A stretch of DNA of 64,000 nt from Daedaleopsis sinensis (lineage: Eukaryota > Basidiomycota > Agaricomycetes > Polyporales > Polyporaceae). Of the stretch, positions 2,195-20,442 are shown in pieces. Location of the stretch: positions 1,860,001 to 1,924,000 of the forward strand of contig CM066311.1 in the NCBI GenBank assembly GCA_033807695.1. The letters run 5' to 3'. A program made the position numbers and the translations under genes. Positions within the stretch are counted from its first letter, which is position 1. Each line of letters opens with the position of its first letter. Under the pieces are notes generated by a model, which had not been told where the DNA came from, ran no database searches, and saw only the letters and a program-made list of their open reading frames with translations.

Positions 2195-2664
2195 TGTTAA
2201 GGGTTATGGGCGATGGCTATGGACTAATACGAAGGTTAGTCTCACGCGTTCTATGAAGGAACGAGTGTATTATTAAGCTAACCTAATACGAAGGTTAGTC
2301 TACAACACAAACGTAAGTATAAGTGTTAAAATGCAGTGCGATACGAATGCTCACCTCACGCGTTCTATGAAGGAACGAGTGAGTGAGACATTCCGCAGAC
2401 CCTTGCTTTATATAGCTTGGCCTCCAGCCCAATAGTAGTAAGTAGAAAATGAAATGATCGTTCAGTAAAAGGGAGCTGCTCTATGCGTGGGAACGCTATT
2501 GCAGAAACTTTGACGATCGGCGTCTAGACTGCCAAAAGAGGAGGCGGCGCGTATGGAACGCTGCCTGGACCCGGCAGATGTGCTGCGCGCGCTTTGAACG
2601 CGCGCGCGAGGTTGGACCGGGGCCCGGGACACGTAATCGTATCCCGTCACCGTCAACCTCAACA
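2195..2664 (-). repeat. Copia 3' LTR (left copy)
   Basis: This 470 bp repeat begins TGTT and ends AACA. Its first about 297 bp match the right LTR exactly, while the remaining about 170 bp (2492-2664, the U3 start in sense orientation) carry many substitutions. Inside are two copies of a 26 bp segment (2242-2267 and 2356-2381) and two copies of TAATACGAAGGTTAGTCT. A minus-strand TATATAAAG lies at 2406-2414. Confidence 0.93.
2406..2414 (-). promoter_or_regulatory. TATA box in copia LTR
   Basis: TATATAAAG reads on the minus strand, in the sense direction of the element. The equivalent box in the promoter-proximal 5' LTR is at 20184-20192. Assigned from motif and position only. Confidence 0.6.
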
Positions 2665-2676
2665 CGCCCCCTCAAA
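2665..2676 (-). promoter_or_regulatory. Copia polypurine tract
   Basis: The sense strand reads TTTGAGGGGGCG immediately before the 3' LTR. This is the expected place and composition for plus-strand DNA priming. It overlaps the stop codon of the polyprotein. Confidence 0.6.
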
Positions 2677-4971
2677 GTGCGCGCAGTCCGAATAGTTCTT
2701 GTAAGTGCACGATCTTCGCGCGGCTGAGTGCTTTGGTGAAAACGTCGGCTGGCATGTCTTCTGTACGTCTGTACCCTAGCACGACTTGGTCCTTCTCGAT
2801 TGCCTCGCGGATGAAGTGGAATCGTATATCGATGTGCTTCGAGCGCGCGTGGAAGGTGTTGTTTTTGGCGAGCTCGATGGCGGATTTGTTGTCCGAATAT
2901 AGTCGAACCGCGTGGTTCGCGATGTCCGGATGGACGGCCTCCGAGAGCAGCGCTCGAATCCAGATCGCTTCCTTGGTCGCGTGGGTGATCGCGATGTACT
3001 CCGCTTCGGTTGAGGAGAGCGCGACGACGCTCTGCTTCTTCGCAGACCAAGTAATAGCGCCTCCGTCCATCGTGAAGACGTACCCGCTAACAGAGTGGCG
3101 CGAGGAGTCGGATGTTCCCCAGTCGGCGTCGCTGTAGCCGACAAGACCCTCGCGCGTTCGTCCGTATTCCAACCATAGCTCGCGCGTGCCGATTAAGTAC
3201 CTCACGACGCGCTTGAGGGCCTCCCAATGCGCGCGGCCAGGGTTGCTCATGAATTGTGAGAGCCGGTGGACTGGGAAGGCGATGTCGGGACGGGTGCCTT
3301 GAGCGAGGTACATCAGCGATCCTACGCCTTCCCGGTAGGGGATCACGGCCATGTCCGCAATTTCTTCCGGCGTAGTCGGAGATTGGGATTTGTCTAGGCG
3401 AGCTCCGGGATCGAGCGGCGTTGATACTGATTTTGCGTCCTCGAGGTGGAGCCTTTTGATGATGGTGTCGATGTGTGATCGCTGCGCCAATCGTAAGGTG
3501 GAATTATTCATGTCGCGCACAACTTCGATTCCGAGGATCCAGCCTACTTTGCCGATGTCGGTCATCTGGAAGTGCCCCTTGATGCCTTCACGAAACTGCG
3601 CGATGTAGTCGTCGGTGCCTGTGATGGCCAGGTCGTCGACAGAGGTGGCGACGATGGACATGGACGATGTGCTGTCGTGTCTGTAGAAGACGGCGTGGTC
3701 GGATTCGCACTTGGTCATGTCTAATTTGCCCATCGCGTTGCAGTACGTCTTGTACCAACCGCGTCCGGCTTGTCGGAGTCCGTACAACGTCTTCTTCAGC
3801 TTGCACACGAGGTGTTCTTCGCCTTTCTTGGCCGTGCCCGGCGGTTGTTCCATGTAGATGGTTTCTTCGAGCTCTCCATTGAGGTAAGCGCTCTTGACGT
3901 CCATCTGGATTATGTTCCATCCATTTCGGGCAGCGATGGAGAATATTGCGCGTACTGATCCGAGACGCGCGACTGGGGCGAATGTGTCGAAGTAATCTTG
4001 CCCGGGTTTCTGTGAGTATCCTTTGGCGACTGCGCGGGCTTTGAACTTTTCGACCTTGCCGTCTGCATCGCGTTTGATGCGAAACACGAATTTGCATCCG
4101 ATGATGTTCGCGTCTCGGGGCCTGTCGACTAGCTCGTAAGTGCCGTGATCGCGTAGATTGTTCATCTCGGTCTGTATGGCGTCCTGCCACTTGGTCCAGT
4201 CCTTCGACGCCTGTGCTTGGGCCAGCGATAGCGGCTCCTCGCCGGCTTCCATCGTTAGTGCTCGGATTTCCTCGCCTCTGTCCTGCGTGTCCGGTTCGGT
4301 CTTCATCTCGAGTGCTGCGACCGCGCCCATGATGTCACCGGATGTGAGGGCGATGATCGCGCGTGCGGGCCTGCGCGCTCTTCCGTCCGCTGAGCCTAGC
4401 CCGTTCTGGATGTCGCGGAGTTTTGCGGAGGGGATTCTGATGCGCTGTCCTCGTCCGGTAGGTTCTTCTGGCGGTTGTTCCTCGATGACGATGTGATCGG
4501 TGGCTTCGGATTCGGAACTGCTGTCCGCCTCGTCCGAGTCGGTGTTCTGAGTGTCGAGGCCCGACGTGGTGATTTCCTCGGGTTCGTTGGGTGCCTGGGC
4601 CGCGGAAGGTTCGTCGTTGACCGGGAGTACGTCGTCGGACGGAGAAACGTCGGGAGCTGCGTCGGGACTAGCGTTGACCGTCGCCCCCTCACTCAGGACA
4701 TTGGGAGGGGGAACAGCGGGTGTGTTGTCCTTGAATACGAGGTTGCGCTCGGCTGTTATGTTACGCTTGTCGGGCCAGTATACCAGTATCCCGTCCTTGT
4801 GTTGCTTGCTGAAGCCTACGAAGATTCCTGAGCGCGCGCGTGAGTCGAGTTTCCCTGGTCGCTCGACCCGGACCCAGACTCGAGTTCCGAATGCTCGCAG
4901 TCCCTTGAGGTTTGGGGCTTTGCCGAAACGCGCGAGGAAGGGCGATTTGCCGCCCAGTGCTGAGTGGCCGG
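2672..4971 (-). pseudogene. Copia polyprotein, C-terminal part: integrase end, RT, RNase H
   Basis: This is the downstream fragment of a split copia Gag-Pol. After the insertion point it reads the integrase C-terminal region (GKSPFLARFGKAPNLKGLR and the GIFVGF motif), then an acidic linker. The reverse transcriptase follows, with GCKFVFRIK, ARAVAKGYSQ, QMDVKSAYLNG and a catalytic S-V-D-D where Y-V-D-D is usual. RNase H has YSDADWG, SSTEAEYIA, SDNKSAI and the final HIDIRFHFIRE. There is no internal stop over about 766 codons. The frame runs upstream into the gypsy LTR only by chance. Together with 17671-19947 it would give a polyprotein of about 1,520 residues; on its own it is a fragment without an initiator. 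Confidence 0.92.
4968..4971. repeat. Gypsy target-site duplication, left copy
   Basis: CCGG borders the gypsy LTR on the left and again at 17666-17669 on the right. It can be read as five bases (CCGGT) if the terminal T of the LTR is counted. The site lies within copia integrase codons, and one copy restores the frame exactly. Confidence 0.85.
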
Positions 4972-5878
4972 TGATGGGGTAACTCTGGGTCGCTGGGCGA
5001 AACACACACCCAAACGAGCACGAGATCAGCTACCTAGTAGGGTGCGAGGTGGAGGACAGGTTCCCGGTGTAGTCGCTCTTCTTCACGTAGCCCGTCGACG
5101 ATAGACAAGGAAGTTGAGCAACTTCAGATGGAAGTCAAGCAACTTCCGAGGGTGAGGCTAGTCTGCAAGAGGAGGTTTGAAGATGGACGGTCTTCAACTG
5201 AGTGTCGACTAGATGATTCTTGGACTCGGACTCGATCTCTGGAGCTACTGCGCTGCTTTGCTGGGCCGCAATCCCGCTGACTTATATACTGTACAAATCG
5301 TCACCAAATAAACTACAACTATCCTACCAATCGTCCAATCATAGGAAACCCTGCTCCTCCCACGCTCACGTCGCGATCCTCCTCTCCTGAACCCCTACGG
5401 CGCACTCCGGTGGTTAGGTAGGTGTTTGCACCGAGCCTATCACGTCGCCGCTCGACTTGCATCCGCGGTCACGAGAGCGCTTAGTCTTGTGGCGCGTCAC
5501 CACGTGATCGCGTCTGAAGTCCATCCGCTCGTCTTCATAGGCCTCGGAAGGCCGTCCCCCTCACTCCCTTGTCTTCCGGGCCTCTTCCGACGACCTTCGT
5601 ACCAATTGCTGGACTCCGTGGCGGTCGCCTAGACCAGACCCTCGATCGATCGCCTCCTCTGTCCTGGCTAGAGCTCTGGCGACCTCGGTCAGCCGCCGGC
5701 AGCTCGGCATCGGCTCCTTCGACCCTTGGAATGGCATGTCTCCGTACTCGCTCCTTCGGTAGTCGCTCGCCTTCCTTGTGAAGCCGCTCGTCTTCATACT
5801 GCGTGAATTGACTGACGGGCGCGAATAGTGATGGGCTGCGTGGTGTTTCCGGGGCCTAGCTGGTCCTGAGGCTCATCA
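4972..5878 (-). repeat. Gypsy 3' LTR
   Basis: A 907 bp direct repeat of 16759-17665, with constant offset 11,787 and no difference found. It contains the hairpin GAAGTTG-AG-CAACTTC near 5112 and a minus-strand TATATAAG at 5281-5288. Short open frames within it are not considered genes. Confidence 0.95.
5281..5288 (-). promoter_or_regulatory. TATA box in gypsy LTR
   Basis: TATATAAG reads on the minus strand, in the sense direction of gag-pol. The equivalent in the 5' LTR is 17068-17075, which would place the transcript start near 17040 and the first in-frame gag ATG (16792) in transcribed U5. Confidence 0.55.
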
Positions 5879-5892
5879 CCTCCCCCCCACTT
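5879..5892 (-). promoter_or_regulatory. Gypsy polypurine tract, 3' LTR copy
   Basis: The sense strand reads AAGTGGGGGGGAGG directly before the LTR start TGATGAG. This is the standard plus-strand primer position. The same 14 bases recur at 10094-10107. Confidence 0.8.
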
Positions 5893-5919
5893 GCATTCGA
5901 ACCGTCCTCGGTTTGCGCG

Positions 5920-5927
5920 TATATAAA
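5920..5927 (+). promoter_or_regulatory. TATA box of antisense gene A
   Basis: TATATAAA on the plus strand lies 36-43 bp before the ATG at 5963 and just inside the polypurine tract. It suggests that the antisense cassette has its own RNA polymerase II promoter. Confidence 0.55.
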
Positions 5928-5962
5928 CTCCCTCGTTCCATCCTCGGTTTTCATCCTTCGCA

Positions 5963-6533
5963 ATGTCTGCCTTCATCTTCCTCAACGTCCCCATCCTCAC
6001 GGAGACTGTCCGTCAGCTTGAAGTCGCGATCTCTGAGTTCGAGGCTCTTGCTGCCGCTCGTACTGAAGAGGACGTTGGAATCATCTACGATTCTTACGAC
6101 CATATCGCTGAACTGGTGGTACGTCGTCCTCCTTCCGCGTGTAGGCCCTCGTCTTCGTGGCTGACTGTCTTCATGGCAGGACACTTTGATCACCTTGGGG
6201 GACGATGGCGAGGTTGCCGCGGACTTCGTGAAACGGACCGAGAATACGATCACCGAGGGCTGGCCTGCCTTGGCTGACCGTCAGCTCTTCCTTTTCCAAG
6301 AGCTTGTCGCCCGGTCCCGTCGGTGCGCTCGTCGGGCCGACCTCGATGCTCGTCGCATTGCCTGTCAGCAGCGGCTCCGGAAGCAACTCTGCGCGCGCCG
6401 CGTCCTCAATCGCGCCGGAGGATCCTTGATCACGGAGTCTATTCTGGTTGATGCCCGGATCCGGAAGGTCGAAAAGGAAATGGAGGAGATAGATCAGGAG
6501 TTTGCCAGCCTCCGAGAGGACATCCACTTTTGA
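5963..6533 (+). CDS. Antisense cassette gene A, hypothetical helical protein
   Basis: Two exons, 5963-6118 and 6180-6533, joined in phase 0 across a 61 bp GT..AG intron, give 169 residues. I do not recognise a family. The protein is mostly charged and helical: an N-terminal ETVRQLEVAISEFEAL stretch, an Arg/Cys-rich middle and a C-terminal heptad-like VEKEMEEIDQEF segment, so a coiled coil is likely. It is the first of three plus-strand genes lying antisense to gag-pol inside the gypsy element. A TATA box sits 36 bp upstream. The start was chosen because it is the first ATG after that TATA and gives an open frame up to a good donor site. Confidence 0.6.
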
Positions 6534-6547
6534 GTAGCCGCGTGTCG

Positions 6548-6554
6548 TATAAAG
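6548..6554 (+). promoter_or_regulatory. TATA-like box of antisense gene B
   Basis: TATAAAG on the plus strand, 42 bp before the ATG at 6596 and 15 bp after the stop of gene A. Assigned on motif and spacing only. Confidence 0.45.
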
Positions 6555-6595
6555 CCGCTGTAACTGCCTTCGAAGTTCATCAACTTCCATTTTTC

Positions 6596-7250
6596 ATGTC
6601 GTCGACCGTCCTCCCGCGTACGCTCGCCCTCCAAGTCAGCTCGCACCGCGAGTTGGCCCTTGAACTCCTCTCCCCGCTTCGTGCGCACATTGTTGAGCAA
6701 ATCGAGTTCTTCGAGACGGTATCCGTCGACCACGGCTGTCCCCGCGTTGTGTATGAACACGCGCTTTCCCGTTTAGGACAACTTTTGGTGAGCTTCTCGG
6801 CCTGATGCTTCTCGCGCTTGATTGACACCTTCCCAGTATGGTTGGAGCATGCTTCATGACGGCCTTCTCGTCGGCGTTTCCGACCTACTTGCCCGCGTGT
6901 CCATCGCCATCGACCAGTGTTTCTACTCCAACGGCCTTGAGGCGTTCCTTGTCGACCTGGTCCAGACGCACCGCCTGCCGTACCGCCTCCACTTCCTGGA
7001 CTCAGTGCATGCCACTCTGCAACACGAACTTCAACTCTTGGAGGTCATGCGCGACCTGGCGCGCGACGACCGGTACCGCGTTCATTTTTCGGAAGTACTC
7101 GCGCGTCTGGAATTGGTCGCCGCTGAACTGCGCGGGGTGCGTATTGAGCAGTCCGCCCTCCACGCGGCCATCAAGAAGCTGGAAAGGTCGCCGTCCTCTC
7201 TGTCAGACGAGGATGAAGTCTTCGGTTCTATTCCTTTGATGTGCGACTGA
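6596..7250 (+). CDS. Antisense cassette gene B, hypothetical helical protein
   Basis: Two exons, 6596-6787 and 6837-7250, joined in phase 0 by a 49 bp intron (GTGAGC...TTCCCAG), give 201 residues. No family was recognised. Long amphipathic helices dominate (LALELLSPLRAHIVEQIEFF; LEVMRDLARDD; ARLELVAAELRG) and the tail is acidic. The protein resembles gene A in size, composition, helix content and MS-type start, but I could not establish homology by eye. An in-frame upstream ATG exists at 6530, but the TATA-like box at 6548 favours 6596. AATAAA at 7353 may end its transcript. Confidence 0.58.
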
Positions 7251-7351
7251 TTGGGGCCGCCCTCGATCGCCGTCGCGCGGAGAGCGCTTAGATTACCGCA
7301 TTTGGACGTTGTACTTCACGGTTCCCTTCACGTTCTTCTGACTGTCGCCCT

Positions 7352-7358
7352 TAATAAA
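7352..7358 (+). promoter_or_regulatory. TAATAAA element between antisense genes B and C
   Basis: TAATAAA lies 100 bp after the gene B stop and 66 bp before the gene C start. It could be the poly(A) signal of gene B, a weak TATA box for gene C, or both. Confidence 0.35.
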
Positions 7359-7423
7359 CGTTTTGGCCTTCTGGTTGTCCGCCTTCGTGCATTCTCCTCT
7401 CGTCTTCTCATCCATCGCCCACC

Positions 7424-9688
7424 ATGTCCGCTTCCAACCGTCGCTCGTCTTCCAACGTCGCCGCCACTCGCTCGTCTTCCGATGCTCCTCGGCGACCGAT
7501 CCCCAAGGAGCTGTTCAAGTGGCTCCCGTTGCAATTCACGCGTGAATCCGATCGACTTGGCTGTGAGGAGCCCGTTCCTACTACGCCTGACGAGCTTCGC
7601 GATCAGGACGCCGCTCCGCTGACGATCAGCGACTTCCGGGCGATCTTGGAAGAGTACACCGACGACCAGCTCGCTACGTTCTCATATGGCACGTTCAAGG
7701 CCATGTTTGATCGTATCGTCATGGCTCTGGTACGCCGTCCCGGCCTTCCAAGTCTTGTCTCGCTGACACATTCCTTTTTCGCAGCACCGTCTCGTCCCGG
7801 AGTGGAATTGGTACCTGGATCCCCTGCTCCTCGCCGCGCTCCCGACGTTCGAGTTTTACGCGCCGCCCTTCCTGGTCTCGGAGTTCTTTCGCTCGTACGC
7901 GCTGGCTTCTCGCCGGTTGCGGTTGTTCGCGGTTTCGAGCACCGTCACGGAGTCCCCGCTGGAGATCGACATCGCCTTCCAGGCTCACCGCCTTCGGCTG
8001 GGCTTCTTCGAGCGTAAGTACTCACGTTCTTCGCCCTCACTCTTGCTTGACTAAGACCGCTTCTTCCTTGCAGTGAATTGGTACCACGAGATCATCCAGC
8101 CGCGCTGGATGGAGGTCGCCGATTACCCGCCCGACATGCGCGCCTCTCGTGAAACCATCGACACTCGCGTCGACCAGTTCTTGCCTTTGCTGTCCGGCAT
8201 GCGTTACGTCCCGGTCCTCGACAAGAAGCGTCTCACGAGGATTCTCGTCACACGCCCCACTTCCTCGTCAACCGCGCCTTCGTCTGACCCCGATGCCCTT
8301 CCTGGCGACGCCTTCCTGGCTGCGATGGTCACTGGTGTCGAGTACGTTCCCGAAGAGGAAGCTTCTGACGACGAGCCTCTGGCCGACGCTGCCCAGCGCG
8401 ACTCTCCTCGTCGTTTCCGCACACGCTCCCCCCTCTCGCCTGACCAACCTCCTCCTCCTCCGCTGTCTCAGCTGCCGCTGAAGAGGAAGAAGACGCCCCT
8501 CTTCTTCAGCACCGATGAGAGCGAGCCGCCCAAGAAGCCCGTCGACAAGGGAAAGCGTAAGGCGGTTTCTCCTCCCGCGGACGATTCCGACCGCGATGCT
8601 GAGGGCGAGGTCGACGATGAAGGCGAAGAAGAAGTCGACCAACTCGAGGAGGAGGAGCCTCCTAAGAAGAAGTCCCGCACCTCGCCCCGCAAACGTCCGC
8701 CTCCTGTCGTCGAGTTGTCGCCTAGGGTCAAGAAGCGCGACAAGAAGCCTCCTTCCACTCGCCAAGGTTCCGTGGAGTTGTCCAGCGCCGTGCAGATCGA
8801 GGGCGACTGCGACGAGTGCCGTCGCGCCGGGGTCACCTGCAGACGTCCGGACCCTTCCGCGTTCCGCTGCAACTTCTGCAAGAAGAAGGGGAAAAGCTTC
8901 TCTTGCGCGTACGACCACCTGAGTGTCCAGGGGACGGTCAAAGGTCAGTACCTTCCCCCTTCTTCTCTTGGTCTTCTTGCTGACTTCTTGTATTCTTTCT
9001 AGTGCACGCCCGCATCGGCGCGATGTACAACGGCGTTGGGTTTTCCTTCCGGGAACCCTCGCAGCTGCCGCCCGCCGACCGTCTTCTCGCCGTCGACTTC
9101 GTCCGCCAGTTCGAGAGGAACTCGCACAAATTCCTCTCCGTCGACAAGGCCGCGCTCCAGGAGCGTCTTCGTCCGAAGACCATCCGGAAGGACACCCCCG
9201 TCTACCCGTACCCGGAGGGTCCTACGCGTTATCCTTCGCTCGACGAGAAGGGCCGCCTGATCGAGGACTATGGCAACAGCAAGGCCGAACCCGACGACTC
9301 TACGCCGCCTCCTCGTTCGTCTCGCGCTTCTGGCAGCGTCAAGAAGGAGAAGCCGAGCCCCTCCAAGTCGACTTCCCAACCGGCGACGCCCCTCAAGATC
9401 TCGATCAAGTCCTCATCTTCCAAGCGCAGGTCGCCGGAGCCGGTCAGCTTCTCGCCGGAGGTCGTCGCGAAGGTCAACCATCTTCGCTCGCAGGTCAGCC
9501 TCGCACGCGCGCGCATCGTCGAGGACTTGGTGTCCATTCGGCAGCTTTCCCGCCGCGAGACTCGACAGACCCAGCTCGATTTTGGCGTGAAGATCGAAGG
9601 GTGCGACGACGTGCGGTCCTTCAAGGACTTGGTGGCGTCCAATGGCTATCGTGAGGATCTCCTCGAGCTTCTTCGCAATGCCGAGTAG
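7424..9688 (+). CDS. Antisense cassette gene C, Zn2Cys6-like nuclear protein
   Basis: Four exons (7424-7729, 7785-8013, 8074-8943, 9003-9688) sum to exactly 697 codons, 696 residues plus stop. All three introns are 55-60 bp with GT..AG ends. Residues about 1-270 look globular (ELFKWLPLQF, NWYLDPLLLAALP, NWYHEIIQPRWM). A long Pro/Lys/Glu-rich linker with basic clusters (PLKRKKTP, PPKKKSRTSPRKRP) suggests nuclear import. From residue about 424 comes a cysteine array with spacing CX2CX6CX9CX2CX8C, which fits the fungal Zn2Cys6 DNA-binding cluster but lies mid-protein instead of N-terminal. The C-terminal third is Ser-rich, then helical. It lies antisense to the gypsy genes, between integrase and the 3' LTR. 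A role in controlling the element or as captured host cargo is inference. Confidence 0.68.
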
Positions 9689-10093
9689 GGACTTCTTCGA
9701 CGCGCGCGCGTCCACGGACTTCTTGTTATTAGCTTTTCTTGTCATCTCCTGCTTGGTCGTCGTCTCGTCCTGTCGTCGCGCGGCTCGCGCTGTCTTGTTT
9801 TCTGTTTTTCGCATATATCTCCTCTGCTCGTCTCTGTCTCCCGCGGACTAGTCTCTCCGTCTCCCTCCTGTCGCTCTGGGCTTTGTAATGTCTCCTTCTG
9901 GTTTTCTTTCCCGTATCCCGTCGCGCTCAGCTTCTGTTGTCCGTCTTAATCTGTACTGTATCTAGTATCCCGAATGTATCGCATCGCCTTCTGCTCTTCT
10001 TCTTGTGTGATCTCCGAGATGACCGACGCGCGAAGCGCCTCTTGAAGCGCTCTTCGGCCTGTAGAGGAATTGACTTCCGTAGTCAAGCGACTT
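9689..10093. other. Gypsy cassette spacer, no gene
   Basis: About 400 bp between the stop of antisense gene C and the internal polypurine tract. It is pyrimidine-rich on the plus strand (TTTCTTGTC-type runs), as expected for a 3' UTR or terminator. No coding segment was recognised. Confidence 0.5.
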
Positions 10094-10107
10094 CCTCCCC
10101 CCCACTT
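10094..10107 (-). promoter_or_regulatory. Second, internal copy of the gypsy polypurine tract
   Basis: An exact 14-base copy of the tract at 5879-5892 (sense AAGTGGGGGGGAGG), only 31 bp downstream of the integrase stop. In a simple gypsy element the 3' LTR would begin here. The flanking bases do not resemble an LTR start, though GTCAAGCGACTTCC next to it echoes GTCAAGCAACTTCC inside the LTR. Confidence 0.7.
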
Positions 10108-10138
10108 TTTCCATTTGACGTCCTCGTCAACGTGAGTG

Positions 10139-11599
10139 TCAGCCGTGTTCGTCATCGTCTGCTAATCCTTCCTCTTCGTAGTTTTCTGTTGTGTTTTCTA
10201 ATTCTTGCAGTCGGCTCTGTGGTGCGTCCAGTTCCTCAATATTGAAGTTGATTGGGTCCTCACGCGCTAGGTAGGGGATGATTCTGAAGGCCGCTATGGG
10301 TCGATCGAAGACGGTCCCATCGAGTTCTGCAATGATGTACGCGCCGCCTCTGTTGCGCGATATCACTACTAGAGGGCCTAGGTACCGTGGTCTCATCTTC
10401 CTGTTGAGCGACTTCTCAATTGCCGTGTTCCGCATCAGAACCAGCCTCCCTCGCTGGAAGTTGAAGTCTCGGATGGTTGCGCTGTGTTCTTTCTCGAATA
10501 GCTCCGCAGCTTGGACGCGTGTTCGGTAGACGGTTGACCGCAACCGCGCTATGTCCTCCGGTCTTTTCTGCAATGCCATCGCCCTGTTGGTGATCAACTC
10601 CGTTGTGGACACGAGCTTCGTCGGTATAGGCAGCAGGTACGTGGCTTCTGTGATGTCCATGGGCAGGATTGGATCCGTCCCAGTTATCGCGTAGTAGGGT
10701 GAGCACCCTAGTCTCCTGCGTACTGTGATTCGGTCCGCCCAGAGTACTGAATATACCCGCGCCACCCATTGCGTCGTATCACCTTCGCATGCTTTGAAGA
10801 GCGCGTCCCGGACGTGGAAATGAGGCCGCTCGACGATTCCGTTCGCTCGTGAGTTGTATCCTGAGATCCGTATGTGCTTGACGTGGTATTGCTTTGCCAG
10901 GTACTCCAACGCTGCAACCCATGGACTTCCGTTGTCTGACACGATCTCGGACAGCGCTCCCCATCTGCACAGCAGGTCTTGATAGATCCAGTCGCCGACC
11001 GCCTTCGCTGTTTGGACTGTACTTGCCCGCCCTTCAGCATAACTTGTGGTTGCACACCTCGCATGGAAGAAGTGCTTGTACGAGCCAGGCATGTCCATAG
11101 AGTCGACGTGAACTCGTACGAACGGCGCCGCAGGATAGGAAACTGAAGGTGGTATGTAGATCCGCGTAGTTTGTCGAATTTGACATTGGTGGCAGCTTCT
11201 CACATACCAGGCCACATCCGCCTTCATTTCTGGCCACCAGAACCGTTCGGCCACGAAGGAGATTGTCGCCTGTACGCCTCTGTGTCCTATGAAGTCGTGC
11301 ATGCTCACGAACGCTTTCGCCCGTAGTTCTGGGGGTAGTACTCTCCTGTGGTTCCCATTCTTCGCTATCTTCCATAGTCGGCCATCCTTCACGAAGAATT
11401 GTCCTGCGTATTTGACGAACGCATCGAGCTCCTTCTGAACCAGCTTCGGTCTTCTCTTGGTGCACAGAAATTCGTAGACGTTCGCTATTTCTGTGGTCAA
11501 ACTTCTGGGCAACCTCCGTGCGCGGTACGATTGCGTAGTCAATTTCTGGAATGTCCGGTAGCTTGCCCGCCGTCCCGCTTGTCTGCTGCATGAGCGCAC
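10139..11599 (-). CDS. Gypsy integrase
   Basis: The genuine integrase reading begins near 11515, where this frame takes over from the RT frame. It has an H-H-C-C zinc-binding N-terminal domain (HDFIGHRG...SCHQCQ). The catalytic core carries D, D and E in VHVDSM, VSDNGSPW and NGIVERPH, and the C-terminal domain has a GPY/F-like RYLGPLVV. The family inserts element DNA into the genome in the nucleus. The tail ends with acidic residues and no chromodomain was recognised. The first 25-30 residues of the open frame, before about 11515, are Arg-rich out-of-frame sequence. Expression requires a +1 shift from the upstream frame or a separate start. The stop lies 31 bp before the internal polypurine tract. 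Confidence 0.88.
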   Translation of the reverse strand: MRSCSRQAGRRASYRTFQKLTTQSYRARRLPRSLTTEIANVYEFLCTKRRPKLVQKELDAFVKYAGQFFVKDGRLWKIAKNGNHRRVLPPELRAKAFVSMHDFIGHRGVQATISFVAERFWWPEMKADVAWYVRSCHQCQIRQTTRIYIPPSVSYPAAPFVRVHVDSMDMPGSYKHFFHARCATTSYAEGRASTVQTAKAVGDWIYQDLLCRWGALSEIVSDNGSPWVAALEYLAKQYHVKHIRISGYNSRANGIVERPHFHVRDALFKACEGDTTQWVARVYSVLWADRITVRRRLGCSPYYAITGTDPILPMDITEATYLLPIPTKLVSTTELITNRAMALQKRPEDIARLRSTVYRTRVQAAELFEKEHSATIRDFNFQRGRLVLMRNTAIEKSLNRKMRPRYLGPLVVISRNRGGAYIIAELDGTVFDRPIAAFRIIPYLAREDPINFNIEELDAPQSRLQELENTTENYEEEGLADDDEHG

Positions 11600-13910
11600 T
11601 GAAGCCCATCGCTTCCGTCTTGAAGTTGCTCGTTTTCCGCTTAACCTCGTGTTGTAGAGGAGCGTCTCCCAAGTGTGGAGGTGGATTTATGAGGTGTGTA
11701 AAGCCGTACATGTTGTCCACCCAGTCATCGAATTCTCCGTTGTCTGCTTCTTCTGGTTCGTCTTCAGGCTGCGCAGGTCGTCGGCTGAGACCGTCCGGTC
11801 CATGGGAGATTCCAGGTACGTGCCGCATTTCGAAGTGGAACATATTGATGCTAATGATCCACCTATTCATGACTGCATTCGGCGCGACATCCGGATTCTG
11901 GATCATGGCTTTCGTAGATGTCGCATCCATTTCTACTATTAGGTTTCGTACCCCGACCAGCCAGAAGCGGAGCGCCTTCAATGCTCGGTACAGACCATAT
12001 AGCTCGAGCTTCGGTTGCGAGAATCTGGCTTCCCTTTCGTTCAAGGTAATGGATCCAAAGCGGTTGTAGTATCGTTTCCGCGGGTCTTCCGGATCCTCTT
12101 GACACAGCTGGTAGCCGACCGCGATATAAGAGGTGTCCACCGCTAGAATTACCGGGGCCTTCGACTCGTAGTTGATCGACTTCAAGGCCGGGGATTCCAC
12201 TAATGCTGTCTTTAGATCCTCCATGGCCTTGTCCTGTTCCTCTCCCCATTCGAACGGTACGTCCTTCCGCGTGAGCTTGACTAATGGCGCGGCCTTCTTC
12301 CCGAAGTTCTTGATGAAGATCCTCCCAACGCCTACCGTTCCCAGGAACGACCGTACTTCGGAAACATTTTTACACGGTCCCCATTTGAGTACCGCATCCA
12401 CGCAACCTCTCTCTGGAAAACGGCCTTCCGGTGTGCATCGATGTCCCACCGCTACGAAGTCGCGCGCCGCGCAGACGAACTTCTTGCCCGAGAAGGTACC
12501 TCCCGCATGTTTCATCCGCTGTACAATCCTGTTGACGTCTTGCATGTGCTCCCAGATGTACCTCCTGATGCCTGGATTCCCCTTCATACACTCGAAAGAA
12601 CCATCTTCCCGTTCGTAGGAAGACTCCGGTCCAATGACAGGTACGTCGTCGATGTAGGGAATCGTCGTATCCGGAATTTCAGGCTGCAATATGTAGGTCA
12701 CGTCGTCGTGGAAGATGGGTACTGAATTTGTCCATCCCATTGGTAGCGTCGTCAGTCGCATGGCTCCGAAAGGCGTTTGGAAGGTCGTGAGGTCGCGCGA
12801 CTCTTCGTCCAGGATCCTCTCGTCGTATCCAACGTATAGATCCAAGGTCGTCCCGCACGCACGCCCTGCAAAGCGTTCTGCCATGTGGTCGGGTATCGGT
12901 GGTACACCGCTGTGTTGAATAGAGACTCTGTTGAGCGGCTCCAGACTATGGACGATCCTCAGACTCCCGTCCTTCTTCAGCACACAGAACCACCTGGATC
13001 GGTAAGACGCATTTGAGGGTTCGTATACGCCTGATTCTATTTTCTTCTTCATGATCTCACAGATTTGTCGGTAGGTTCCGGGTGGAATGGGGAAATTCGT
13101 TTCAATCCACGGAGTGTGAGGCACAACCGCAAACTTCACTGGTGGGAACATGTCCGTCCTGAAGTGGCCACGCTCGCTGTCTTCCCAAGCGAATCCCTGC
13201 TCCTGTTTGCACATCATGTCGTCTAGCAAAGCTAGCTCTTCTTCCGATAGGTGAGCATTGACTTTGTGGAGCTTCTCGCGTCGTTCAGCTGTGTACCGCC
13301 CAGTTGGTTCAAAAGGCTTTGGATTGAGGTCAAGCGGCTTCATCCCTTCGAGAGGGTCGCCGATTATCTCCCGTACAATTCTGTATTGCTTTGGAAGCTC
13401 CCCAATCACTGGTCGTACTTTCTTATCCACTGGCTTGTACTTCTTCTTCGATTTCACGTAGCTGCGTACGCTCTCGGGGTCCTCGGTGGCTGCTTGCCGC
13501 TCGTCGTCTTCTGGAAGTTGCTCGCCTTCCGCCTCTTGTTCTTGCTCGCTCGGCTCAGATTTCTCGCTCGCTCTTGCTGCTTCGCTGGACCTAGACCGGG
13601 TTCTGACTGCTCTTCTGCCTCTGGTTTTCGTAGCGTATACTGGGAGTGCTCGTCCTCGGAAGAGGGCTCGGTCGACTTCGCGATGTGGTTGTCGGCTCCG
13701 CATTCTATCCCCTTCCGATTCCTGGATCGGTACTTTCGAGAACATGGTTTTGATTTTCTGCTTTGTCTCGGAGTCGTCACAGGCCGATAGATATGCTGAC
13801 TGAATTGTGGAATTTTCTAGGTTTTCTAAGTCCTTGTACGCCGTCGTGAAAACTTGACCCGTTCTTGCGTCATAGTCGAGGACGAGAGCGACCTCTCCCT
13901 GACTGTTCAT
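11034..13910 (-). CDS. Gypsy reverse transcriptase-RNase H
   Basis: The frame opens with an ATG that overlaps the gag stop as TGATG. After a charged linker comes the RT: FCVLKKDGSLRIVHSLEPLN, TTLDLYVGYDE, FGAMRLTTLPMGWTNS and the catalytic Y-I-D-D. The FLGTVG connection follows, then a gypsy RNase H with acidic residues in VDTSYIAVGY, KLELYGL and MDATS, ending in the HVPGISHGPDGLSR motif. The useful frame stops near 11500; beyond it this frame stays open to 11034 but its sequence no longer resembles integrase, whereas the +1 frame does. No internal stops interrupt the enzyme, in keeping with a young element. The protein copies element RNA into DNA in cytoplasmic particles. Confidence 0.9.
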   Translation of the reverse strand: MNSQGEVALVLDYDARTGQVFTTAYKDLENLENSTIQSAYLSACDDSETKQKIKTMFSKVPIQESEGDRMRSRQPHREVDRALFRGRALPVYATKTRGRRAVRTRSRSSEAARASEKSEPSEQEQEAEGEQLPEDDERQAATEDPESVRSYVKSKKKYKPVDKKVRPVIGELPKQYRIVREIIGDPLEGMKPLDLNPKPFEPTGRYTAERREKLHKVNAHLSEEELALLDDMMCKQEQGFAWEDSERGHFRTDMFPPVKFAVVPHTPWIETNFPIPPGTYRQICEIMKKKIESGVYEPSNASYRSRWFCVLKKDGSLRIVHSLEPLNRVSIQHSGVPPIPDHMAERFAGRACGTTLDLYVGYDERILDEESRDLTTFQTPFGAMRLTTLPMGWTNSVPIFHDDVTYILQPEIPDTTIPYIDDVPVIGPESSYEREDGSFECMKGNPGIRRYIWEHMQDVNRIVQRMKHAGGTFSGKKFVCAARDFVAVGHRCTPEGRFPERGCVDAVLKWGPCKNVSEVRSFLGTVGVGRIFIKNFGKKAAPLVKLTRKDVPFEWGEEQDKAMEDLKTALVESPALKSINYESKAPVILAVDTSYIAVGYQLCQEDPEDPRKRYYNRFGSITLNEREARFSQPKLELYGLYRALKALRFWLVGVRNLIVEMDATSTKAMIQNPDVAPNAVMNRWIISINMFHFEMRHVPGISHGPDGLSRRPAQPEDEPEEADNGEFDDWVDNMYGFTHLINPPPHLGDAPLQHEVKRKTSNFKTEAMGFSALMQQTSGTAGKLPDIPEIDYAIVPRTEVAQKFDHRNSERLRISVHQEKTEAGSEGARCVRQIRRTILREGWPTMEDSEEWEPQESTTPRTTGESVREHARLHRTQRRTGDNLLRGRTVLVARNEGGCGLVCEKLPPMSNSTNYADLHTTFSFLSCGAVRTSSRRLYGHAWLVQALLPCEVCNHKLC

Positions 13911-16792
13911 CAGATCCTCGAAGCCCGAAAACCCTCGACTCTGAGTCCATAACTCGGAGAGTCTCCATGCGCGTAGGTCGGTAGCGTCAATTCGCGGTTC
14001 GAGTTAGGGCAAGTGACGGTAATTGACAATTGGCCATCCATAGAGTTGCTCGACCTCGCACGCATCACCGTCATGAACGGCCTTCCTAGGAGGATCTGGT
14101 AAGGCGCTGCCTTCACAACATGCATCTGGAGGTAGACCACGATCCCGCCACCTAATTCTACAGGCACGTTCTTTGCTAGACCGAGTGTCATGTCGACCGT
14201 CCCATTTGCGCTGATCATCCTCCTTCGCTTGGTAGGATCGTAGGGGATCTTCAACGCATAAGCGATCTGGTCGTTTATACCGACGATCTGGGACCCATCG
14301 TCGAGTGTACACTCTGTCGGCGTGTCCGTTCGAGCTACCCAGGTGAACAGCGACCTCAGCTTCTCCGATTCCGAGGCTACGATGGTTGACTTCCGCCGAC
14401 TGCTCGCAGGATAGCCTTGTCCCGGAGCTACATACGGTGCATTGTGCGACTTTGGCTCCTCGTCCTCGTCCTCGCTGCCTTCATAGTCCAGGTCTACGAA
14501 TGCAAAGGATCCAAGCGTCGGCCTTCCAGTCCCTGAGGATGAACTTCCTGCTGTCTGGAGGTTGTCTTCCAGGAAGTCTTCGTCTTCAGCGACTTCGGTC
14601 ACTAGTACCTTGTTCCGAGGCCGCTCGCCTTCCCGGTTGGTCACTTCCTGCAGTTGCTCGTCTCTGACTTGCGTTCGCCTGAGAGCTGTGGCCTCATGCA
14701 CTCGCTTCCTGAGTCCTGGAGAAATACTGAGTAGCTCGGCTGGTGACACTGTGATACTCTGGCTGTCTCCGAAGCTTCGGTTGAAGACTCTTTCTTCCGC
14801 CGTCGGGTCGATGATCGCTGCGGTCCTTCTGACCGGTGGTTCGTCCTTCTTCGGCAGTTCCTGGCCTCTGGGTACCACAGTCGGCGCATAGGGATGGAAG
14901 GTCTCTTCAGGCTCTTTTGCCCTCGTGTCCCAGGTAACGTGCTTCTCCTTCTCCTTTCCCTTCTCTCTCGTCGGCTGGTGAGGCGGCTGATCACGCTCGG
15001 GCGTCCCTGCCCGCGTGTCGTCCCTCCCTTTCTCCGAGTTGCGCGTAATACGTCGAGGCCGCGTCTCTAGCTCGACTCCATCAAAAACCTGCCGTCCCGA
15101 GCGAGTGTTCATGCGCTCTTTAACCATGTTTGCCTTGTGCATGAGGACTTCTAACTCCTCTTCCAAGGTACGCTCGTCTTCCTGCATCTCGAACTGATAG
15201 ATGTTGCTCATGGTTCCTCGCGCTCGTTGGTTTGGGTTCTTTTCGTGCCAAGCATTGACTCTATCGCGCATACAGTTCCCTGGCAGACTACGAGGGATCA
15301 CACCGCCTCCTGGTAGGATGATTTTGTCGTATACGTCCTTCCGGATGAGTCCCGCCGTCATGTCCTCTGCGACTTTCGGGCACGTCTTCAACCGACATCC
15401 CGGTAGGCCACAGTAGATGCATTCGTCGTTAGCGGGTGGATTACGTCCGTATAGGCCCCCCTGCTGCTGCTGGTACCTTCCCTGGGGAGGTTGTGGTGGT
15501 GGAGGGTATTGTTCCCCTTGTTGCGGCGGTTGCGTGGCTTGCATCCTCTGCTGGCTCACGAAGTCGCGCATGGTCGAACTCATCATGGAGATCATCTCCC
15601 GCTTGAAGGCCGATAGATCCGGCTCGGTTTTCACCGTAACCGTGGAGGCCATGGCTGGAGCCGGAGGATTGACTCGAGCGAGGTTACCGGACGTCGCAGT
15701 TGACCAACTTCCGATCCCGCCGAACGGGCCTCCGTCCGCCAGACAATAGGAAATTGCTTCATGCACTTGCGCGACCGTGTAAGCTTCTTCTTTGTGTTTT
15801 GCAGGCACCTGGTGTGCTAACCGCGCGGATACCGCCATTGTGTACTGCATAGGAACTAGTCGTAGCAAGGCTGTCGACGCGTCGCGCTCCGTTAGCTCTG
15901 GCTCGGTCTTCGCATGCAAGTACCGGTAGATGGGATAGAATTTGCCGTAGAACTTCATGTAGGTTTCGAGGCTGGATATCCCCGTACGTACGGCTTCCCC
16001 GATGACTTCATTGTATTCTCGCAGTGTCCAGGTGTACTGGGCGTCCGTCCCGAGGTAGAAGGATAGAACCTCCGTCTTGAATTCTTCATACGTCTTCTGG
16101 GTGTCCGAGAACGTCGGCAGGGACTTCCATCGCTTGGCGACTCCCGCTGGTATGTAGTCAACCGCCGCCGCCTTGCAAGCTTGTTCATCAGTGATGCTAT
16201 GCTTCTTCAGAAGTCGGGCAAGGTCGTCAAAGTACCGCTCGACGGTGTCCTTAGATTCCTCATCGAATTGGGGCGCACTCCTTTCCGTACGCAACGGTAG
16301 TTTCGATAGATCTGCGCTAGCCATTGAATGGATTGTGGGTGGTACTACGGGTGGTAGAGCCGTAGGTAATATTTGAGCGGCGTAGGCTAGCAGGGAAGGA
16401 AGGGGGTTCCTAGGTAGGTTGAAGGCCCCTGCGGTATGTGATAGCGTAGGTCTTGGGTTACTAATTGATTCTGAAGTCAGGAACGGATGGTCCGGAACTT
16501 CAATGTCCTCCTGCTCGTCTTCGGAAGCGTCCTCTAGTTCGGTAAGCGGAGAGTCTGCGAAAACTGCGAAGTTGTTCTCGATAACGGTAGTGAGCTGCTC
16601 TGCTCTCTCGGGGTCTTCTGCTTCGATTTCCTCTAAAGCCTGTTCGGTTTGTCGATGGAGGCGACGGATACGTTCGCTCCGCGTCGGCCGCAAACGTGGG
16701 ATTCTTGAGCCGGAACCGGTGGAGACTGTTCTTGAACCCCTCGCGGTGGGCTCCAGAATGATGGGGTAACTCTGGGTCGCTGGGCGAAACAC
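13910..16792 (-). CDS. Gypsy Gag-protease
   Basis: The open frame has 960 codons. It starts at an ATG inside the 5' LTR (16792); the next in-frame ATG is at 16324 (MASADLSKL), so the true start is undecided. A gag-like helical domain (RTERSAPQFDEESKDTVERY, WKSLPTFSD) is followed by a Gln/Pro-rich region. A zinc knuckle comes next with spacing CX2CX4CX4C, where the usual His is a Cys. The C-terminal retropepsin-like domain has D-D-G-S in place of D-S/T-G, then ILLGRPFM. The stop overlaps the next start codon (TGATG at 13908-13912), a layout suited to termination-reinitiation. Gag builds the particle and the protease cleaves the polyproteins. Confidence 0.87.
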   Translation of the reverse strand: MFRPATQSYPIILEPTARGSRTVSTGSGSRIPRLRPTRSERIRRLHRQTEQALEEIEAEDPERAEQLTTVIENNFAVFADSPLTELEDASEDEQEDIEVPDHPFLTSESISNPRPTLSHTAGAFNLPRNPLPSLLAYAAQILPTALPPVVPPTIHSMASADLSKLPLRTERSAPQFDEESKDTVERYFDDLARLLKKHSITDEQACKAAAVDYIPAGVAKRWKSLPTFSDTQKTYEEFKTEVLSFYLGTDAQYTWTLREYNEVIGEAVRTGISSLETYMKFYGKFYPIYRYLHAKTEPELTERDASTALLRLVPMQYTMAVSARLAHQVPAKHKEEAYTVAQVHEAISYCLADGGPFGGIGSWSTATSGNLARVNPPAPAMASTVTVKTEPDLSAFKREMISMMSSTMRDFVSQQRMQATQPPQQGEQYPPPPQPPQGRYQQQQGGLYGRNPPANDECIYCGLPGCRLKTCPKVAEDMTAGLIRKDVYDKIILPGGGVIPRSLPGNCMRDRVNAWHEKNPNQRARGTMSNIYQFEMQEDERTLEEELEVLMHKANMVKERMNTRSGRQVFDGVELETRPRRITRNSEKGRDDTRAGTPERDQPPHQPTREKGKEKEKHVTWDTRAKEPEETFHPYAPTVVPRGQELPKKDEPPVRRTAAIIDPTAEERVFNRSFGDSQSITVSPAELLSISPGLRKRVHEATALRRTQVRDEQLQEVTNREGERPRNKVLVTEVAEDEDFLEDNLQTAGSSSSGTGRPTLGSFAFVDLDYEGSEDEDEEPKSHNAPYVAPGQGYPASSRRKSTIVASESEKLRSLFTWVARTDTPTECTLDDGSQIVGINDQIAYALKIPYDPTKRRRMISANGTVDMTLGLAKNVPVELGGGIVVYLQMHVVKAAPYQILLGRPFMTVMRARSSNSMDGQLSITVTCPNSNRELTLPTYAHGDSPSYGLRVEGFRASRI
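16739..16755 (-). promoter_or_regulatory. Candidate gypsy primer-binding site
   Basis: Three bases after the end of the 5' LTR the sense strand reads TGGAGCCCACCGCGAGG. It starts with the TGG expected opposite a tRNA CCA tail. I could not name the matching tRNA. Confidence 0.4.
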
Positions 16793-17665
16793 ACACCCAA
16801 ACGAGCACGAGATCAGCTACCTAGTAGGGTGCGAGGTGGAGGACAGGTTCCCGGTGTAGTCGCTCTTCTTCACGTAGCCCGTCGACGATAGACAAGGAAG
16901 TTGAGCAACTTCAGATGGAAGTCAAGCAACTTCCGAGGGTGAGGCTAGTCTGCAAGAGGAGGTTTGAAGATGGACGGTCTTCAACTGAGTGTCGACTAGA
17001 TGATTCTTGGACTCGGACTCGATCTCTGGAGCTACTGCGCTGCTTTGCTGGGCCGCAATCCCGCTGACTTATATACTGTACAAATCGTCACCAAATAAAC
17101 TACAACTATCCTACCAATCGTCCAATCATAGGAAACCCTGCTCCTCCCACGCTCACGTCGCGATCCTCCTCTCCTGAACCCCTACGGCGCACTCCGGTGG
17201 TTAGGTAGGTGTTTGCACCGAGCCTATCACGTCGCCGCTCGACTTGCATCCGCGGTCACGAGAGCGCTTAGTCTTGTGGCGCGTCACCACGTGATCGCGT
17301 CTGAAGTCCATCCGCTCGTCTTCATAGGCCTCGGAAGGCCGTCCCCCTCACTCCCTTGTCTTCCGGGCCTCTTCCGACGACCTTCGTACCAATTGCTGGA
17401 CTCCGTGGCGGTCGCCTAGACCAGACCCTCGATCGATCGCCTCCTCTGTCCTGGCTAGAGCTCTGGCGACCTCGGTCAGCCGCCGGCAGCTCGGCATCGG
17501 CTCCTTCGACCCTTGGAATGGCATGTCTCCGTACTCGCTCCTTCGGTAGTCGCTCGCCTTCCTTGTGAAGCCGCTCGTCTTCATACTGCGTGAATTGACT
17601 GACGGGCGCGAATAGTGATGGGCTGCGTGGTGTTTCCGGGGCCTAGCTGGTCCTGAGGCTCATCA
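16759..17665 (-). repeat. Gypsy 5' LTR
   Basis: A 907 bp LTR identical by eye to 4972-5878. It starts TGATGGGG and ends CTCATCA on the plus strand, with a minus-strand TATATAAG at 17068-17075. The gag frame begins within its U5 part. Confidence 0.95.
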
Positions 17666-17669
17666 CCGG
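17666..17669. repeat. Gypsy target-site duplication, right copy
   Basis: CCGG, matching 4968-4971 on the other side of the element. Five bases (CCGGT) if the next T is included. Confidence 0.85.
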
Positions 17670-17670
17670 T

Positions 17671-19947
17671 GCGGTTTGTCGTCCAAATTGCGTGTAGGTA
17701 CGCGTACGGCCAGACTGATTTCGGAAGCGCGCTCTCGAGGAGCATCGCGCGCGTCTTGGCCGCTATGTCGCGATTGGCGCGCTCGGCGGAACCGTTCTGC
17801 TCGGGAGTGTCGTGCACGGATGTGGTGAAACGCGTCCCGTGATCCTTCAAGTGCTGCCGAAGCGCGATGAATTCGCCGCCTCCATCTGAGTGCAGCCACT
17901 TGATCTGTTTGCCATATTGAGTTAGTAACTGTGCTTCCAGTTCGCGGTAGGCGATTTCCGCGCCGTTCTTTCGTTTGTACGTGAAGCCGTCTTTCCACTT
18001 TGTGGCTTCGTCCGTGTAGAGGGACGCGTAGTGGCTTCCTCCGAGTGACGTCCAGCCTGGTTCCCAGCTGTCTGCGTTGACCCGGTCTCCGTACTCCATC
18101 GGGGTTCCGTACTCTACGGCGCTTGCCCGTTCCGCTGTCTTGGGTACCGGCTTTCTAGTCATCTTGGCTTGGATGCAAATCGGGCACTGCACGTTAGTGC
18201 ACCGATCGCTGAGCTCGATCCCATCGACGTAGCCCTTGTCCACCATTTCGCGGGCGCTCTTGACTGAGATGTGCCCCATGATGCGGTGGAATTCGCCGTC
18301 GGACAAGACGTCTTTTGCGGACGTGTCGCCGTGTGCTGCCAGAGCTATGAGAGCGTCGACCTTGTGCGTGATGACCTGGTAGAGGCCGTTGTTCTCAGGA
18401 ACCCGCGCGATGGTGGCTCCAGTTCGCCGGTGGATGAGGTTGCAGACGCCGTGCTCGATCAGCGTTGAATAACCGCATTCGTCCGCGCGCTTGACGGAAA
18501 TAAGCGCGAACGCGACGGTGGGTGAGTGGAGTACGTTGTTGAGTATGGCCGTGGTGGCGTCTCCTCTATTCGGCATCTCGACTTGGACGGTTCCTTCGCC
18601 TATGGCGAAGAACTTGTCTCCGTTCGCGGCGGTGATGGCGCGAGGAGGATCGAGGAGCTTGTAGCTGCTGAATCGTTCTCGGTACGGGAATATGTGTCGT
18701 GTAGCGCCGCTGTCGTAGACTTCGACGTAGTCGCGCGCCGGCGTGTTGGTTGCGAGCGCCGTGGTGTTCTGCAGCGCGATGAGCGAGACCTCGCTCCGCG
18801 TGTCCGAGGCTGCGTTCGCGCCTGTTCCAGTTCCCGCCCCGAGGTTTCCGCTTGTGTTCCCGTTGCCTCCTTCTGCTCCGCCGTTCCTGTTCCTCTGGTT
18901 GGAGAACTTGGGTCTCTGACCTTCCATTCCTCCTCCTGCTCTCCAGCATTTGGCCTTGATGTGGCCTGTTCTTCTGCAGTTGTAGCAGGTGATAGGTCCC
19001 GTTGCGAGCGCGTTGTCGGTGGCGCTCGGACTTGCCATCTCGCGGCGATCGTATTCCTCGTTGAGCGTGAGGATCAGGACGTTTACCGGGACTGAGATGT
19101 TCGTGAGTCGCGCTAGGTCCGAGAGCGACTGCACGCGTCCGTGGTACGTGTCGGGGATGCTGCCTGTGATGATCGCGGTGAACTCGGGGTCCGCGATCCG
19201 TCCTCCGATAGCCGCGAGGTTCTCGCGCTCCTTTTGGAGGAGTGCGAGATGCGCGCGCATGTCTCCGCCCTCGGTGCATCGAGCGTTCTGCATGCGGGTG
19301 CGTATCGCGTTGGCGTACATGGTGGACTTGTCCTCGCATGTTCGTACGACGGATTGCCAGAGCGTCGCGGCGTTGGTGGCGTCTTTGACGTCTACGAAGA
19401 GATCTTCGCTAAGTGTCTCGTAGATCAGTGCGCGTGCGTCGGCTTCCTTGGTCTCCCAGGCATAGAACTTTGTTTCCGCGCGCTCGAGTACTTTCTCGTA
19501 CTCTTCGTCGGTGAGCGTGCTGTATTGATCCGTTGCTGGGGTGGCGCCGCTCGCGGCAGATGGCGCGGCGATCGGAATTGTTCCGGAGGCTCCAGTCGTC
19601 GCGGTGTTTGGTCCCGCGCTCGCGCTCGTTGCACCCGCTCCTGTTCCTGTGGCTGCCGCGCTTGCTCCCGCGTTGGATCCGGCGGTAGAGGCGCTAGCAG
19701 AGGGGATGGTGGCAGTGGAGGTAGACGTGGCTGTGCCCGAGGTCGCGGAAGGCTGACTGTGGGGTAGAAGGCGAGGGAAGGGAGGTGGAGCAGGCGGCTG
19801 ACGGGCTGACCCGCGGACATGCTGCATCAGGCCTTTCGCTGTTAGGATGGTGAGCATCCGTTCGCGATAGACGACCCAATTGGAGCCATCGCTTGCGAGC
19901 TTTGGGAGCGTGTATCGCGATGTGGTGCTTGAAGTTTCGTATGCCAT
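17671..19947 (-). pseudogene. Copia polyprotein, N-terminal part: Gag, zinc knuckle, protease, integrase
   Basis: This is the upstream fragment of the split copia Gag-Pol. The ATG at 19947 (MAYETSST) is preferred over 19968, which falls inside the primer-binding site. The gag region (YTLPKLASDGSNWVVYRERM) is interrupted by a long Ala/Ser/Thr-rich insert. Then come a CCHC knuckle (CYNCRRTGHIKAKC) near residue 320, the protease D-S-G-A motif (YDSGATRHIF) and a GAG-pre-integrase HX3H/CX2C zinc site. The integrase core has NADSWEP, HSDGGGEF and NGSAERANR. The frame is cut after residues TNRTG by the gypsy LTR. No other lesion was seen. The continuation lies at 2672-4971. Confidence 0.92.
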
Positions 19948-19960
19948 TTTCTGTGAAGCA

Positions 19961-19972
19961 GGGCTCATAACC
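19961..19972 (-). promoter_or_regulatory. Copia primer-binding site
   Basis: Directly after the 5' LTR the sense strand reads GGTTATGAGCCC. This is complementary to GGGCTCATAACC, the anticodon stem-loop type sequence of eukaryotic initiator tRNA-Met, not its 3' end. Drosophila copia is known to use an initiator tRNA half-molecule in this way. Confidence 0.6.
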
Positions 19973-20442
19973 TGTTAAGGGTTATGGGCGATGGCTATGG
20001 ACTAATACGAAGGTTAGTCTCACGCGTTCTATGAAGGAACGAGTGTATTATTAAGCTAACCTAATACGAAGGTTAGTCTACAACACAAACGTAAGTATAA
20101 GTGTTAAAATGCAGTGCGATACGAATGCTCACCTCACGCGTTCTATGAAGGAACGAGTGAGTGAGACATTCCGCAGACCCTTGCTTTATATAGCTTGGCC
20201 TCCAGCCCAATAGTAGTAAGTAGAAAATGAAATGATCGTTCAGTAAAAGGGAGCTGCTCTATGCGTGGGAATGCGTTTGCAGAAACGAAGGTGATCGGCG
20301 TCTAGACTTCCGCAAAAGGAGGCGGCGCGTATGGAACGCTGCCTGGACTCGGCAGAGGTGCTACGCGCGATTTGAGCCTGAGCGTCAAGTGAGGCCGGGG
20401 CCCGAGATGCGTAATCGCATCTCGTCACCGTCAACCTCAACA
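19973..20442 (-). repeat. Copia 5' LTR (right copy)
   Basis: 470 bp. Identical to the left LTR for about 297 bp from 19973, then clearly divergent to the end at 20442. TATA box at 20184-20192 on the minus strand. Confidence 0.93.

Follow-up and report, generated by a model that had tools for sequence, protein, structure and literature searches.

How does a retrotransposon come to carry, and to keep, a set of intron-containing genes on the strand opposite to its own, and what might such genes do for it? This question is raised by a 64,000-nucleotide (nt) stretch of the Daedaleopsis sinensis genome (assembly GCA_033807695.1, contig CM066311.1, positions 1,860,001 to 1,924,000, hereafter "the window"), in which a Ty3/gypsy long terminal repeat (LTR) retrotransposon lies on the minus strand. 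An initial annotation had described three spliced plus-strand genes within this element (169, 201 and 696 residues), and both the frames and five introns (one, one and three per gene, 49–61 nt, all GT..AG) are indeed present in the 4.2 kb that separate the integrase stop at 10139 from the 3' LTR (Table 1). The borders then given for this cassette, 5893-10093, are exact, and delimit the stretch between two identical 14-nt tracts. Overall, we consider it probable (roughly 60%) that the cassette is an old accessory module encoded by this gypsy lineage rather than passenger DNA, that its antisense genes are spliced, and that the largest of them, gene 3, encodes a nuclear DNA-binding regulator.

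Distribution and conservation of the cassette

The genome searched (51.6 Mb in 24 contigs, match counts being lower bounds) includes at least 30 full-length matches to the cassette block, the window copy among them, as well as eight block pieces corresponding to four more copies, and four weak matches. Forty of 55 candidate reverse transcriptase (RT) matches were scored, 34 of which belong to the family of the window element (family A), and the cassette is located at a constant offset of 1007-1008 nt from RT in 31 of these 34, i.e., in most copies of the family, as is the rule for the plant antisense frames discussed below. Full-length copies thus share the cassette at the same place, and the prospect raised initially, that all other copies might lack the block, is not what the genome holds: of the three RT matches that lack a cassette, one lies where a contig begins and the other two belong to 3'-truncated copies within a nested region of contig 6. 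One of the latter has its LTR directly after a shortened pol, with the integrase end and the cassette gone together, and the other stops at the LTR of a neighbouring element. No complete pol without a cassette was seen among the scored family A matches, and three cassette places have no scored RT match alongside. Contig 6 also includes a cluster of nested, oppositely oriented family A copies (4143019-4174845), one of them deleted from integrase to LTR.

In an alignment of 30 of the 34 copies, with the window copy as reference for divergence, the whole frame is kept in all 30 copies for gene 3, in 27/30 for gene 2, and in all eight copies covered for gene 1. Divergence of gene 3 from the window copy is concentrated at third codon positions (0.6, 0.4 and 1.7% at positions 1, 2 and 3), and gene 3 has a ratio of non-synonymous to synonymous substitutions (dN/dS) of 0.177, gene 2 one of 0.305: the cassette exons are under purifying selection. 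The corresponding ratio of differences (pN/pS) is 0.14 for exon 3 of gene 3 and 0.12 for the end of integrase, compared to 1.23 for a control, a 672-nt opposite-strand frame inside gene 3. Chance frames are excluded, since gene 3 is open in 30/30 copies and the overlapping opposite-strand frame is unconstrained. Among 26 copies, genes 2 and 3 have no indel in 2697 nt of exon and four in 223 nt of intron, none a multiple of three, so that the introns vary freely in length, as if removed from the transcripts. This is consistent with the explanation first offered for their survival, i.e., that antisense introns escape loss: the aligned copies still have them, and their lengths vary without regard to the reading frame.

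An alternative would be that the frames are incidental and that the antisense RNA itself is functional, acting for example to trigger silencing or to form double-stranded RNA. Antisense RNAs are discussed as regulators in other retroelements (PMC7264820), but selection at the protein level, frame-preserving exons and the protein homology between families described below make this reading barely credible for the cassette.

Related families and paired polypurine tracts

Conservation of the frames, seen between copies, also extends to other families of the same genome. Family B (RT identity 67%) has homologues of all three cassette genes (24-33% protein identity to A), with the first introns of the genes at the same places. 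In families C and D, which were read in part, gene 3 is present together with one small gene, and families B and C are close to each other both in RT (96%) and, by eye, in the gene 3 alignment. Family E ends about 200 nt past integrase and has no cassette. In one family B copy (L040, 8060-8317), a 28-nt unit is repeated nine times in tandem between gene 1 and gene 2, and another family B copy (L039) has no tandem repeat above threshold. In a family C copy, gene 1 and gene 3 have between them an inverted repeat (L045:317-3722) whose arms are 1383 nt long and 89% complementary. At L046:3263-3733 and L047:4423-4959 are frames that resemble decayed C-terminal ends of gene 3 (67-79% identical in DNA), which suggests that related families of greater age exist. 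On contig 8, a fungal-type protein kinase frame (L052:1433-5559; PF17667, Pkinase_fungal, 2531-3904) follows a family E element past its 3' LTR, with two similar kinase-end pieces recognized by eye.

The cassette of family A is flanked on both sides by a 14-nt polypurine tract (CCTCCCCCCCACTT). Family B has a pair of 18 nt and of different sequence, its inner copy 27 nt past the integrase stop, and family D a pair of 12 nt, its inner copy 15 nt past a stop placed by eye; in family C, the inner tract only was seen. The longest chance match in 300 shuffles, which covered A and B, was 13 nt for A and 15 nt for B. Within family A, the inner tract and its surroundings (26 nt) are unchanged in 34 of 38 loci (these being 30 copies; the search pattern missed four), and the outer tract in all eight loci that reach that far. 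Since the two tracts match within families and differ between them, either the RNase H of the element uses both or copying keeps them alike. The inner tract probably marks the original tract place, and the cassette, together with a tract copy, was probably inserted between tract and LTR, because the inner tract lies where a cassette-free element would have its sole tract. Plus-strand DNA synthesis may still start from the inner copy.

Such paired tracts (in A, B and D), and the existence of a family without the cassette, are also what one would expect of a semi-independent passenger module that moves from one gypsy family to another through copy choice at the tracts. However, as judged by eye, divergence of the cassette tracks that of the families, B and C being close in both RT and gene 3, and no copy with an inner tract but no cassette was seen. 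We thus regard such a mobile passenger as highly improbable, and favor descent of the cassette with the element.

Predicted promoters and proteins

A TATA-like box had initially been assigned to each gene, and this stands for the small genes 1 and 2 only. A TATAAA motif precedes the ATG by 41-50 nt in four of the five small genes of families A, B and D, namely gene 1 of A and B, gene 2 of A, and the small gene of D (the fifth, gene 2 of B, instead has an ATAAAA 77 nt ahead), against an expectation of 0.014 TATAWA per 60 nt in the window. Gene 3 of family A has no TATAAA but an AATAAA 71 nt upstream, and none of four TATA-like patterns is found within 130 nt of gene 3 in B and D.

The gene 3 protein includes a cluster of six cysteines arranged as two C-x2-C halves, as in Zn2Cys6 domains; all six are invariant across six gene 3 sequences, with differing spacings. 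The middle of the protein is basic, acidic and proline-rich. When the gene 3 profile was compared to PDB, 11 of 17 matches, including the top four, were Zn2Cys6 domains (CYP1/HAP1, LAC9, GAL4, CBF3B, AlcR and PPR1; best E-value 0.22). The protein thus looks like a fungal Zn2Cys6 protein at a similarity below threshold, and we do not assign it as one.

Several observations weigh against the reading of the cassette as an accessory regulatory module. The six other PDB matches are to unrelated proteins (e.g., TFIIE, G-beta-5); Pfam Zn_clus (PF00172) matches three of six members below threshold (best E-value 0.003), and the window piece scores 15.3 bits where the gathering score is 21; some unrelated Pfam families also score close (Anti-TRAP, Bowman-Birk, zf-BED, E-values 0.02-0.04); and half-site counts in the LTR revealed no clear excess of Zn2Cys6-type sites. 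The match between the gene 3 proteins of A and B is strongest over the cysteine cluster and beyond, and poor in the first half. Not every copy is intact, since one family A copy (L008) has AT for GT at the donor of gene 3 intron 2; a family B copy (L041) has both the frame and an acceptor of gene 3 broken. The 14-nt tract match of family A is just one nucleotide longer than the best of the shuffles, a comparison that took in the pairs of A and B. Finally, transcription and splicing of the cassette are themselves predictions from sequence.

Origin and function

Bringing these elements together, we propose that after insertion the host RNA polymerase II would start at promoters just inside the 3' LTR (the TATA boxes of the small genes) and run along the strand opposite to gag-pol. 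After splicing, the transcripts would yield a large protein with a Zn2Cys6-like cysteine cluster and, in addition, one or two small proteins. The RNA copied into DNA would be the sense transcript, in which the cassette introns are reversed and invisible to the spliceosome, and the introns would persist for this reason. Gene 3 would most likely act as a nuclear DNA-binding regulator of the element, like the antisense accessory genes of some retroviruses, a role that also parallels the one proposed for antisense genes of plant elements.

The products could instead act not on transcription but further along the cycle (in RNA export, in the assembly of particles, in nuclear entry or in target choice). 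Conservation of gene 1 is high, with equal exon 2 scores in 30 of 34 family A matches, and an LTR element of worms is described as needing a protein of its own to export its genomic RNA (PMC10309623). With its cysteine cluster and a middle rich in proline and in basic and acidic residues, gene 3 nonetheless resembles a nuclear regulator more closely, so that we take a later-step role seriously while thinking it unlikely.

Two origins had been offered initially, and the evidence favors element-encoded regulators over captured host cargo. Introns of the spliceosomal type, 49-61 nt long, are what captured host genes might bring, and capture in antisense would preserve them. However, searches of the genome at limited depth with one exon per gene (39 matches for gene 3 exon 3, 45 for gene 1 exon 2 of family B, and 35 for gene 2 exon 2, the last query missing even family B) recovered no host copy outside elements, all matches being in or beside elements except one short fragment at 68%, which speaks against recent cargo. 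Furthermore, conservation at 24-33% between A and B would make any capture old, and a Pfam scan of the cassette exon pieces returned no family above cut-off. Captured host cargo is thus very unlikely, and an accessory module of the element itself remains our preferred reading.

Other features of the window

The LTRs, visually identical in the initial annotation, are so across 907 bp. This length was retained over the 909 bp of the pairwise repeat, because the last two bases belong to the polypurine tract; 5' LTRs across the genome match positions 1-907 only. The element is ordered gag-protease, reverse transcriptase-RNase H, integrase. Since pol is split in the window copy (frames of 989 and 515 residues) while most family A copies are unsplit (a single 1287-residue frame holds 27 of the 34 RT matches), this copy may be non-autonomous. 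It bisects a copia element (RVT_2 at 2675-5029, E-value 3e-66) with pieces at about 2672-5029 and 17581-19974. Host genes noted include a flavin-binding monooxygenase-like gene (PF00743, 39703-41001) and F-box genes.

Table 1. Features of the family A element and its antisense cassette (window coordinates; ORF, open reading frame).
Feature	Position	Strand	Basis or remark
Ty3/gypsy LTR retrotransposon, family A	4972..17665	-	LTR pair; Pfam RT, RNase H, integrase zinc domain
Target site duplication CCGG, left	4968..4971	.	sequence
Target site duplication CCGG, right	17666..17669	.	sequence
3' LTR, 907 bp	4972..5878	-	LTR comparison
5' LTR, identical to 3' LTR	16759..17665	-	LTR comparison
3' polypurine tract adjoining LTR	5879..5892	-	14-nt match to 10094-10107
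Internal polypurine tract copy	10094..10107	-	31 nt past integrase stop codon
Gag and protease frame	13910..16816	-	gag-asp_proteas E 1e-5, just under its cut-off
RT and RNase H part of pol	11034..14003	-	Pfam; frame split from integrase in window copy
Integrase part of pol	10139..11686	-	ORF and Pfam; stop at 10139
TATAAA before gene 1	5922..5927	+	41 nt ahead of ATG
Gene 1 exon 1	5963..6118	+	
Gene 1 intron	6119..6179	+	phase 0; same place in family B
Gene 1 exon 2	6180..6533	+	full protein 169 residues; no Pfam family
TATAAA before gene 2	6548..6553	+	48 nt ahead of ATG
Gene 2 exon 1	6596..6787	+	gene start 6596
Gene 2 intron	6788..6836	+	phase 0; same place in family B
Gene 2 exon 2	6837..7250	+	full protein 201 residues
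Gene 3 exon 1	7424..7729	+	
Gene 3 intron 1	7730..7784	+	position comparable in family B and, by eye, in D
Gene 3 exon 2	7785..8013	+	
Gene 3 intron 2	8014..8073	+	absent in family B
Gene 3 exon 3	8074..8943	+	charged, proline-rich middle and cysteine cluster
Cysteine cluster C-x2-C-x6-C-x9-C-x2-C-x8-C	8808..8906	+	gene 3, family A
Gene 3 intron 3	8944..9002	+	absent in family B
Gene 3 exon 4	9003..9688	+	full protein 696 residues

Relation to known antisense genes

Extra antisense frames at this place are already known from plants and from the brtn gene of Botrytis. Plant gypsy elements such as Grande (gene23), RIRE2, Retand and PvRetro13 have antisense frames between pol and the 3' LTR (aORF-3R, PMC7264820), which are similar to the cassette in place, orientation, presence in most copies and lack of known host relatives; Grande is further described with its own antisense promoter and a nuclear protein, likenesses that are predictions in our case. 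In contrast, the cassette is fungal, has up to three genes, each with introns, and no domain shared with these frames was found. In the plant Retand lineage with its TRP28 domain (PMC11963269), the region between pol and the 3' LTR is 2.9-6.6 kb long, with antisense frames, predicted DNA binding and tandem repeats, all of which have a counterpart here (the tandem repeats in family B copy L040, 9 x 28 nt). The cassette differs in its kingdom and in that TRP28 (PF04195) gave no match at E-values up to 1 in the single-exon pieces scanned. The word "intron" is absent from both sources, the first of which calls for a search for antisense spliced transcripts, and both describe the role of the plant frames as unknown.

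Among fungi, the Botrytis element Boty/BcGypsy1 with its antisense gene brtn (Zhao et al., 2011, as cited in PMC7264820 and PMC8365987) is likewise a gypsy element with an extra antisense gene, but a single gene is named in these citing texts, and our comparison with it is by description. The HBZ gene of human T-cell leukaemia virus type 1 (HTLV-1) is described as a spliced antisense retroelement gene coding for a nuclear regulator, a bZIP protein expressed from the 3' LTR (PMC10186651). The cassette is similar in its antisense genes with introns and in the nuclear role predicted here, but has its TATA boxes inside the element and a large protein with a cysteine cluster, with no bZIP match in the exon pieces scanned. 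It is tempting to speculate on a retrovirus-like second gene program, in which a spliced multi-gene antisense module would be joined to a duplicated, co-evolving polypurine tract serving as a second plus-strand start, and to a zinc-cluster protein controlling its own LTR, although we offer this extended scenario only as a tentative possibility.

We found no spliced multi-gene antisense set in fungi in the open literature, most subscription papers lying outside that search. Within these bounds, the new points are that a fungal antisense module has introns and up to three genes, that selection acting on it has been measured, that it is conserved from one family to another, and that it lies between paired tracts. 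The plant antisense frames have in this cassette a fungal counterpart made up of several spliced genes, and near-identical and diverged copies within one genome make selection on antisense genes measurable. More broadly, retroelements can keep spliceosomal introns over the long term through genes coded on the strand that is not copied.

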